23,378 nucleotides of DNA from an uncultured Halioglobus sp. (GTDB lineage Bacteria > Pseudomonadota > Gammaproteobacteria > Pseudomonadales > Halieaceae). The first letter of the stretch is position 1. The number at the start of each line of letters is the position of its first letter. Positions 2,621-4,860 of this stretch are shown in pieces. The DNA lies in NCBI GenBank assembly GCA_905480565.1, contig CAJQQW010000203.1, positions 1 to 23,378 of the forward strand, read 5' to 3'. The notes under the pieces are model-generated. The model searched no databases. It saw nothing but the letters and a program-made list of their open reading frames with translations, and was not told where the DNA came from. Both the position numbers and the translations under genes were made by a program.

Positions 2621-2649
2621 TTGAACTGGTCCTGTATTTTAATTACTGT
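2621..2649 (+). promoter_or_regulatory. Candidate promoter of the SOS operon
   Basis: TTGAAC at 2621-2626, a 17-base spacer and TACTGT at 2644-2649 form a plausible sigma70 promoter whose -10 lies inside the LexA box, so bound LexA would block RNA polymerase. The -10 is only a 4/6 match, so the exact elements are tentative. Confidence 0.45.
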
Positions 2650-2663
2650 ATATATATACAGTA
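2644..2663 (+). promoter_or_regulatory. LexA (SOS) box, exact consensus
   Basis: TACTGTATATATATACAGTA is identical to the gammaproteobacterial LexA consensus (CTGT-N8-ACAG with an alternating AT core). The perfect palindrome extends to 24 bases (2642-2665). It ends 19 bases before the TTG start of the radical SAM gene and overlaps the candidate -10, which is the usual geometry for LexA repression. An exact consensus implies tight binding, so low uninduced expression and induction after DNA damage are expected. Confidence 0.93.
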
Positions 2664-2682
2664 ATAGATACGGGTTCACACC

Positions 2683-3954
2683 TTGGACGTTCTCCAAAAA
2701 TTAGAGATCCTGGCAGACGCCGCAAAGTATGATGCGTCGTGTGCCAGCAGCGGGACAGAATCTCGTAATTCCCTCAAAAATCAGGGTATCGGGTCAACGA
2801 GCTCCGGCATGGGTATCTGTCACAGTTACACCCCCGATGGAAGATGCATTTCTCTATTAAAAATTTTACTCACCAACTTCTGTCTCTATGAATGCGCATA
2901 CTGCGTTAACCGCACATCCAGCAACGTCCCAAGGGCGCGGTTCTCTATCGATGAAGTAGTTAACTTGACCATGGATTTCTACAAGCGGAACTATATCGAA
3001 GGCCTGTTCCTCAGCTCAGGCATCATAAAAAGCGCCGACTATACAATGGAGCAGGTGGTGGCAGTTGCACGAAAGCTCAGACTCGAACATCGCTTTGGTG
3101 GGTACATACATCTCAAGACCATACCCGAAGCCTCACCCGAACTGCTCGCAGAAGCCGGCCTCTATGCCGATCGACTGAGTATTAACGTGGAACTGCCCTC
3201 TGAGAAATCTCTCAAACGCCTCGCGCCCGAAAAAAATGCGCACTCCATCGTGCGATCAATGGCTAACCTGAGCAGCGGCATAGAAGAATACAAAGAATCC
3301 CAAAAATTGGCCCGCAAGAAGGCAAACAAAAAGCTCATCGCGCCTAAATTTTCCCCAAGCGGCCAGAGCACGCAGATGATCGTAGGTGCCGATGCATCTA
3401 ATGATGCGATTATTCTGCGCAAGGCAAGCCAGCTGTATAAATCGTTCAAGATGAAACGGGTTTACTATTCCGCGTTCAGCCCAATACCCGATGCATCATC
3501 AGAACTGCCATTAAAGCCTCCGCCATTAGTCAGAGAGCACCGCCTTTATCAAGCCGACTGGCTGCTTCGCTTCTACGGTTATGGTGTTGATGAGCTGACT
3601 GACGTGACCAATGAAAGCCAAGCACCCGGAATGCTGTCTCTTGATGTCGACCCCAAGCTGGCTTGGGCAATTCGGCATCGTGATGCATTCCCGGTCGATC
3701 TCAACCGTGCCGATTTCGAAACGATATTGCGCGTTCCGGGCATAGGCGTCATCAATGCTCGTCGGCTCGTCGCGCAACGCAAGGTAGCGACCCTTCGCTA
3801 TCAAGATCTGAGTAAACTTCGCTTGCCCATCGAAAAACTGAAATATTTCGTCACCACAATCGACCATTGTCCTAACCCAACACAATTAGACGCGGCCAAT
3901 TTCTCGAGCTTGTTTATCGCGCAAAAAAATCAGCAAATGAACCTTTTTGAATGA
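2683..3954 (+). CDS. Putative DNA modification/repair radical SAM protein
   Basis: 423-residue radical SAM enzyme matching the family annotated as putative DNA modification/repair radical SAM protein (TIGR03916 type), often found with DUF4130 and uracil-DNA-glycosylase-like proteins. Seen: family-like N-terminus (LQKLEILADAAKYDASCASSG), the 4Fe-4S motif C67-x3-C71-x2-C74, the conserved stretch YIEGLFLSSGI, LSINVELPSE and RLAPEKN, and a C-terminal helix-hairpin-helix (RVPGIG near 350) of the non-specific DNA-binding kind. The start is TTG: a TAG at 2665-2667 closes the frame, and the next ATG (codon 43) would remove conserved residues. There is no clear Shine-Dalgarno site. It sits behind a perfect LexA box and nine bases before the DUF4130 gene, so I infer a damage-inducible operon. 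The reaction is unknown. Confidence 0.9.
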   Translation: MDVLQKLEILADAAKYDASCASSGTESRNSLKNQGIGSTSSGMGICHSYTPDGRCISLLKILLTNFCLYECAYCVNRTSSNVPRARFSIDEVVNLTMDFYKRNYIEGLFLSSGIIKSADYTMEQVVAVARKLRLEHRFGGYIHLKTIPEASPELLAEAGLYADRLSINVELPSEKSLKRLAPEKNAHSIVRSMANLSSGIEEYKESQKLARKKANKKLIAPKFSPSGQSTQMIVGADASNDAIILRKASQLYKSFKMKRVYYSAFSPIPDASSELPLKPPPLVREHRLYQADWLLRFYGYGVDELTDVTNESQAPGMLSLDVDPKLAWAIRHRDAFPVDLNRADFETILRVPGIGVINARRLVAQRKVATLRYQDLSKLRLPIEKLKYFVTTIDHCPNPTQLDAANFSSLFIAQKNQQMNLFE

Positions 3955-3963
3955 ACAAGACCT

Positions 3964-4860
3964 ATGTATTCCTTTTCTGTCACTGACTTCGACGGCTGGC
4001 GAACAATCGCCCGGGGGTTGTTACAGGCCAACGTAGCACCTTCAGAAATAAGCTGGCAGCCTCCGGAACAACACGGCCTATTTTCGCCAAGCTCTCTAGA
4101 GAACATTATTGATTCTGCAACGCGAGTAAGCAGCAGCTACACACATAAGATACCGCGAGACTTCCTGCAGCGCGCTCAACAGGCCGCCTGCTTTTCAGAT
4201 AGGAAAGACCCCGCAAGAAAATGGTCAATCCTGTATTCGTTGTTGTGGCGCATCGTGAATTGCGGGAAAGAAACGTTACTTTTGACCTCTGACCCGGACG
4301 TGCGTTGCCTGGGCAGCATGTGTAAAGCGGTCAGTCGTGACAAGCACAAAATGAAAGCATTTGTGCGCTTTCAGCAGGTCGTTAGCCACGACGTTGAGAT
4401 TGCCGGTCAAGCGTCCTGTGAGGGTGATGCTGAATATTACGTGGCATGGTTCGAACCCTGCCACGCTATCATCGAATCGATTGCGCCATTTTTCGTTAAG
4501 CGTTTTACCGGTATGAAATGGTCAATTCTGACCCCCGATGGCTGCGCCCATTGGGATATGACGCAACTCACACTATCGGAGGGAGTGCTAAAGCCCGAAA
4601 TCGATGCTGATGCTTTTGACCTTTTTTGGAAGGCTTACTATCGCAATATCTTCAATCCTGCGCGTCTGAAGGAGCAGGCGATGCGCAGCGAAATGCCAAA
4701 AAAATACTGGAAATATCTGCCGGAGGCGACGTGCATTCAAGACTTGACCAGAGGCGCTGCTGCAATCACTGAGCAGATGATTAATGCGCCAGCGACGAAT
4801 AGCAATCGCGCCCGTGACAAATCCAAGCGGTCGCGCAGTTTCAAGACACTCTGCGGTTAA
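3964..4860 (+). CDS. DUF4130 (TIGR03915-type) DNA-metabolism protein
   Basis: 298-residue partner of the radical SAM protein, of the DUF4130 family annotated as probable DNA metabolism protein. Seen: RDKHKMKAFVRFQ, then EYYVAWFEPCH, PFFVKRF, WSILTPDGCAHWD, FWKAYYRNIFNPARLKEQAM and MPKKYWKYLPE, the hallmark DUF4130 series, in the region of about residues 120-258. In many bacteria DUF4130 is fused to, or next to, a UdgX-type uracil-DNA-glycosylase-like domain; here the protein stops after a basic Ser/Arg/Lys-rich tail (last ~30 residues) and no such domain follows. The nine-base gap to the previous stop argues for cotranscription under LexA control. The molecular function is not established for the family. 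Confidence 0.85.
   Translation: MYSFSVTDFDGWRTIARGLLQANVAPSEISWQPPEQHGLFSPSSLENIIDSATRVSSSYTHKIPRDFLQRAQQAACFSDRKDPARKWSILYSLLWRIVNCGKETLLLTSDPDVRCLGSMCKAVSRDKHKMKAFVRFQQVVSHDVEIAGQASCEGDAEYYVAWFEPCHAIIESIAPFFVKRFTGMKWSILTPDGCAHWDMTQLTLSEGVLKPEIDADAFDLFWKAYYRNIFNPARLKEQAMRSEMPKKYWKYLPEATCIQDLTRGAAAITEQMINAPATNSNRARDKSKRSRSFKTLCG

Follow-up and report, generated by a model that had tools for sequence, protein, structure and literature searches.

A radical SAM and DUF4130 operon behind a LexA box in an uncultured Halioglobus sp.: a putative SOS-induced repair module with beta-clamp-type motifs

The operon described here lies on a stretch of 23,378 nucleotides from an uncultured Halioglobus sp. 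(contig CAJQQW010000203.1), referred to below as the window, and all coordinates are positions of that stretch. The first gene (2683..3954, + strand) has a TTG start and encodes a radical SAM protein of 423 aa. With a score of 570.2 bits over residues 4-419 against a curated cut-off of 343.5, this protein belongs to the TIGR03916 family (rSAM_link_UDG). The second gene (3964..4860, + strand) encodes a protein of 298 aa belonging to TIGR03915 (score 211.4, cut-off 112.25) and to Pfam DUF4130 (score 130.2, cut-off 27), the DUF4130 domain occupying residues 85-254 (4216..4725, + strand). The two genes are separated by 9 bp on the same strand, in keeping with the two-gene operon of a preliminary description of this DNA. 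The operon is flanked at the 5′ side by a PepSY-TM-like gene and at the 3′ side by DUF1214 and DUF1254 genes, and given these neighbors it is most simply taken as consisting of two genes. At its very end (4800-4860), the DUF4130 protein is read in a different frame to that of the relative L024, leaving a shorter tail (298 vs. 315 aa). This one-base length difference occurs past the conserved DUF4130 domain and is either an assembly error or real.

Conserved residues were read from two alignments of chosen sequences, one (A1) with 50 radical SAM proteins out of some 200 and the other (A2) with 47 DUF4130 proteins. The radical SAM protein possesses the 4Fe-4S motif CxxxCxxC (Cys67, Cys71, and Cys74; 2881..2904, + strand), which is matched by Pfam Radical_SAM and is invariant in 50/50 aligned proteins. 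Three additional cysteines are likewise invariant in all 50, namely Cys20, Cys46 (with His47), and Cys55 (codons within 2740..2847, + strand), and the stretch Cys20/Cys46/His47/Cys55 could possibly form an auxiliary metal or Fe-S site. A helix-hairpin-helix (HhH) was located at residues 337-367 (3691..3783, + strand). In the single protein this falls under the Pfam HHH_3 cut-off (20.4 vs. 27), but the family profile matches the HhH chain of a ComEA-related protein in the PDB (2duy, E = 1.2e-4), and this profile supports the previously suggested C-terminal HhH. The DNA-linked role suggested earlier likewise holds. PDB profile matches of the protein were to HhH chains and to a short radical SAM stretch, and these solved structures were uninformative on the chemistry. 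The TIGR03916 family is large, with at least 8000 candidates scored, all of which matched.

Upstream of the operon, TACTGTATATATATACAGTA (2644-2663) is an exact match, 20/20, to the LexA consensus, and AT/AT flanks extend this core to a perfect palindrome of 24 bp (2642..2665, no strand assigned). Scanning of the sequence thereby confirmed both features as first described. The core ends 19 bp upstream of the TTG start of the TIGR03916 gene, and in relatives the half-sites are kept while the center is variable. It is the sole site in the window at three or fewer mismatches and no such site arose in 100 dinucleotide shuffles, while its 16-bp core has a single occurrence in the genome of 3,115,436 bases (~3.1 Mb), where a reversed-pattern control had none. 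A chance origin of the box was rejected on these grounds. A weak candidate for a -35 element, TTGAAC (2621..2626, + strand), is spaced 17 bp from the box core on its upstream side, and TTGAA at this spacing (counted by eye) is kept in 4/4 aligned upstream regions. However, no sigma-70 consensus promoter was found by a scan of the region upstream of the TIGR03916 gene, and the proposal that the box overlaps the -10 element is therefore no more than plausible.

The pattern WACTGT-N8-ACAGTW has four exact places in the genome of the window. When one mismatch was allowed, it was found at 12 places compared to 14 for the reversed control, so the loose pattern alone is not enriched genome-wide. One of the exact places, TACTGTATATAAATACAGTA, is situated 34 bp ahead of the start of imuA (an ORF scoring 204 bits against the ImuA model). 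It is near-identical to the window box and is the only exact place besides it with an A/T-rich center. No lexA gene was found in this genome, which is 74% complete. Within the genus, lexA was present over the cut-off in 16 of 18 genomes, and CTGT-N8-ACAG sites were found in all seven of the lexA promoters inspected from these 16, with three carrying two sites. Given the imuA box and these promoters, it is very likely that the LexA of the genus recognizes the window box. The exact box, the imuA box, the lexA promoters of the genus and the boxes of orthologs together bear out the proposed SOS control, and LexA control of the operon is, as a prediction from sequence, well supported.

A scan of genome contigs for related loci kept 80, and box counts were taken in the 150 bp upstream of the aligned start. 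Among 145 genomes of relatives, eight (own included) hold a radical SAM gene over the cut-off, giving six more upstream regions besides that of the window. Locus L017, taken as a copy of L024 since both contigs have the same length (14,872), and the sub-cut-off loci L022, L023, and L171-L184 were excluded from the counts. The preliminary description had proposed a search for the same box upstream of orthologs, and this largely succeeded, with the boxes proving to be lineage-specific. Among Gammaproteobacteria, CTGT-N8-ACAG was present in 11/12 regions, that of the window among the 12 (expected 0.08); in the twelfth, L014, the motif is at -173, with an open frame whose first ATG is at -120. GAAC-N7-GAAC was found in 8/9 alphaproteobacterial regions (expected 0.05). 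For a group of mainly Firmicutes, the strict form of GAAC-N4-GTTC was found in 15/24 regions and a form loosened after the regions had been viewed in 22/24 (expected 0.25). In Bacteroidetes, CTAA-N5-TTAG occurred in 4/10 regions (expected 0.06) and GGA-N5-TCC in 2/10 (expected 0.39), the latter count being near chance as this motif also occurs in 2/12 gammaproteobacterial regions. Both are motifs named for Bacteroidetes in PMC8565304. Boxes of the tested types were absent from the 150 bp upstream in Bacteriovoracaceae (0/3), Acidobacteriota (0/1), and L076 (0/1), and TTAC-N3-GTAA, tried for Bacteriovoracaceae, was rejected (0/3). A class-wide sample had a radical SAM gene over the cut-off in 11/369 genomes and provided eight further upstream regions: four with the exact box, one with a box one base off (by eye), one with the Xanthomonadales palindrome described below, and two with none recognizable, both from one genus. 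The exact CTGT-N8-ACAG was not found in 220 bp at lexA (L154) of the Arenicella genome holding L026, and no lexA was found in the Woeseia genome holding L060.

In the tree of radical SAM proteins, the Woeseiaceae, G406, and G501 rows, which have CTGT boxes, group with alphaproteobacterial rows, which mostly have GAAC boxes (support 98/92). The type of box thus goes with the host group and not with the position of the gene in the tree, and because it changes with the host group, the reading of one LexA box passed on along with the gene was rejected. The window protein itself is placed with Arenicella and with gammaproteobacteria of other families, and not with L014 from its own family. Its gene is found in only 3/18 genomes of the genus. 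Taken together, these two observations suggest that the gene arrived horizontally, and would have been captured by the local SOS system. The distribution of the gene is patchy, as the eight genomes of 145 indicate, and relatives were identified on 158 plasmid records, mostly alphaproteobacterial (58 from Phaeobacter). Among the control genomes, Caulobacter vibrioides also matched TIGR03916. Ten records of a phage collection also contain a relative, two of these being 240-kb records of putative Acinetobacter phages. The copy on L031, a contig labeled Bacillus subtilis SK7B5, is 64% identical to that of the window, the level of the Stenotrophomonas copies, and is probably contamination.

The Xanthomonadales (27 loci: L027-L048, L050, L058, L059, L071, and L084) were found to differ, with CTGT-N8-ACAG in 0/27 operons and another palindrome in its place. 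The core of this palindrome, TCTCA-N5-TGAGA, is located ~38 bp ahead of the start in 24/27 operons and nowhere else in 282,594 bp of the same loci, although the pattern was read from the same upstream regions in which it was counted and its expected value is not independent. The palindrome was searched for in four Xanthomonadales genomes, and in two of these again at one mismatch; the additional loci concerned are L132, L137, L143, L135, L147, L148, L161, L194, and L199. In at least one of the four it was also found upstream of uvrA, a TIGR03817-like helicase gene, and a PA0069-family radical SAM gene, and, by eye, upstream of umuDC and imuA-like ORFs; the remaining sites are beside no recognized repair gene. 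At lexA, three of the five lexA-like loci read carry TTAGTAGTAATACTACTAA (absent from L155 and L159), and so a regulator other than LexA may run an SOS-like regulon in this order. Upstream of the umuD-like gene of L161 (~1339-1381), a TTAG..CTAA-type site adjoins a GTCTCG-N5-TGAGAC site, a pairing which suggests two regulators. Two Stenotrophomonas genomes (L133 and L144) have a similar palindrome ~170 bp ahead of an mraZ-like gene, the gene of L133 scoring 96.8 against a MraZ cut-off of 98.35. This could possibly be a link to cell division, or chance.

Using a search profile built from 47 DUF4130 proteins, DUF4130 was identified downstream of the radical SAM gene, on the same strand and within 1.2 kb, in 79/79 loci with room for it (one of the 80 had none), and in 75 of the 79 the distance from the radical SAM match is no more than 130 bp. 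In 37/79 loci, DUF4130 is followed within 2.5 kb by a UDG domain, L056 being cut by the contig end. Several of these DUF4130-UDG loci are single ORFs of ~485 aa, and both Pfam domains are present in fused proteins, P0218 among them. P0218 aligns with the solved structures of UdgX (PDB 6ail, 6ajo, and 6io9), including a GKRRIH-like loop that we presume to be catalytic; the structures are, we assume, from Mycolicibacterium smegmatis. No PDB relatives of DUF4130 were found by profile search. The association with UDG-like proteins asserted earlier therefore holds for the family, while the window locus has no UDG domain and none homologous to UdgX was found in its incomplete genome, where TIGR03914 had no match. 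The same model had no match in six other gammaproteobacterial genomes that have the radical SAM gene (G003, G017, G074, G109, G118, and G141), and in a seventh, G125, it had a sub-cut-off match only. With DUF4130 constant, UDG present in 37/79 loci, and TIGR03914 not found here, the core of the system as read from gene content is the radical SAM protein plus DUF4130, UdgX being optional. That other lineages have a UdgX-like domain fused to DUF4130 suggests that at least one substrate is uracil or an abasic site.

Both proteins also carry a putative motif of the beta-clamp type, for which the canonical form is QLxLF according to PMC11791011. In the radical SAM protein this is QMNLF at the C-terminus (residues 418-422; 3934..3948, + strand). 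Gln418 is the one invariant residue of the tail after residue 366 (50/50), and a hydrophobic position 421 followed by Phe422 is found in 47/50 aligned proteins. Tail forms elsewhere include QGSLF, QLSLF, and QLNLF; common forms such as QGSLF deviate from QLxLF, and many members are off the strict consensus. The pattern Q..[LIMVFW][FLWYM] was found in the last 60 residues of 173/200 radical SAM proteins compared to 18% of shuffled tails, with the remaining 27 having mostly six-residue forms such as QLGFGF (by eye). Among the 80 loci, the loose pattern was present in all and the strict Q..[LIM]F in 73, again within the last 60 residues. Controls were scored with the strict pattern only, and it occurred in 7 of the remaining 479 long ORFs at these loci; three of the seven have it in the last 12 residues and seem to be radical SAM proteins missed by the filter. 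The DUF4130 protein carries QHGLF in its N-terminal part (residues 36-40; 4069..4083, + strand), with Gln36 conserved in 40/47, and a loose motif within residues 21-65 was found in 96/120 homologs vs. 13.5% of shuffles. Both proteins accordingly share with beta-clamp clients a conserved QLxLF-type motif, and we infer that each may dock on the clamp through QxxLF. The SOS polymerases Pol II, Pol IV, and Pol V of E. coli are described with clamp motifs in the same source (PMC11791011). They resemble the present pair in SOS control and in the QLxLF-type motif, but no polymerase domain was found in the pair, which has instead a radical SAM enzyme.

Regulation of this kind is not new, contrary to what had been supposed. 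Presuming that COG4277 is the TIGR03916 radical SAM family, the COG1573-COG4277 operon in print shares with the window operon its LexA control and its radical SAM enzyme. It differs in the partner, named as a uracil-DNA glycosylase (COG1573), whereas the second gene of the window encodes DUF4130 alone. PMC8565304 predicts LexA control of this two-gene operon in Bacteroidetes and says that such control is reported in Verrucomicrobia and Alphaproteobacteria. An unspecified radical SAM protein is listed in Gram-positive and Balneolaeota LexA regulons (PMC7739468). The module type and its LexA control are thus already known from other phyla, and what is added here is the cross-phylum survey of boxes, the recognition of DUF4130 as a constant partner and of UdgX as an optional one, and the description of the extra cysteines and of the clamp-type motifs. 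In the literature searched by family and by LexA, SOS, and UDG context, no paper on the biochemistry of the radical SAM or DUF4130 families was found.

Together, the box survey, the constant presence of DUF4130, the optional nature of UdgX, the additional invariant cysteines, and the motifs of the clamp type favor a fork-coupled repair complex, and we consider it reasonably probable that the operon encodes an SOS-induced, replication-coupled complex for the repair of DNA lesions that docks on the clamp. LexA on the palindrome would block the promoter, and damage would remove it, so that both proteins are produced at the same time. Of these, the radical SAM protein would bind DNA via the HhH and dock on the beta sliding clamp via its C-terminal QxxLF, while DUF4130, its constant partner, would dock by its own QxxLF to form a complex and probably recognizes or processes the lesion. 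A 5′-deoxyadenosyl radical would then attack the damaged nucleotide, at base or sugar, which would be restored or made removable at the stalled fork. With clamp-type tags in both proteins, the mending of DNA at stalled forks by radical chemistry is probable. The preliminary description was correct in its SOS control, operon, DNA role, and UDG link, but it had missed the clamp-type motifs, the three extra invariant cysteines, and the failure to find a UDG partner (TIGR03914) in this incomplete genome.

Several other roles may be considered for the pair. Although radical SAM proteins linked to DUF4130 are described as SplB-like photolyases in a figure legend of PMC3765255, and a role in UV damage fits SOS control, it is unlikely that the enzyme directly reverses a UV thymine lesion in the manner of spore photoproduct lyase with DUF4130 as an accessory. 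There was no match to TIGR04070 at E 0.001 (a PA0069-family radical SAM protein matches this model weakly), so membership of the spore photoproduct lyases was rejected, and the fusion with UDG seen outside this lineage argues for uracil or abasic sites instead. The three further invariant cysteines and the C-terminal HhH also speak against it, and we know of no spore photoproduct lyase with either. It is quite unlikely that the pair is a translesion or mutagenesis accessory, regulating error-prone synthesis or marking lesions from its seat on the clamp and carrying out no repair itself. The invariant radical SAM cluster motif (50/50) implies catalysis on a substrate, and no polymerase gene was found among the model-named ORFs of the window (a minority of its ORFs were scanned), but such a role would suit the clamp-type motifs in both proteins, the box common to imuA, and the description of DUF4130 as a predicted mutagenesis-related enzyme in PMC3765255.

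A system for base modification (hypermodification) or against phage, again with no repair, is very improbable. The NCBIfam name of "putative DNA modification/repair" allows for it, as do the patchy distribution and the 158 plasmid records. However, neither protein matched PADLOC at E 0.01, and the damage-type boxes in several phyla and the clamp-type motifs fit repair better. With these zero PADLOC matches and one marginal PHROG match (E 0.0094), the anti-phage reading was rejected.

The repair complex at the fork can be elaborated into a more detailed picture, which is offered tentatively and is possible rather than probable. The pair would be a replisome-tethered radical SAM machine, the radical SAM enzyme having an extra N-terminal metal site; both proteins would sit on the beta clamp, and lesions would be repaired in place at stalled forks, as an SOS branch beside the translesion polymerases. 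UdgX, an optional add-on, would trap abasic sites covalently and pass them on to this radical chemistry. The clamp-type motifs would place the radical enzyme at the replication fork and so provide a physical setting for its role. The family is large (at least 8000 matches) and stands under damage-type boxes in several phyla. If the reading is true, the SOS tools coupled to the fork would include radical chemistry, and UdgX would gain a pathway.
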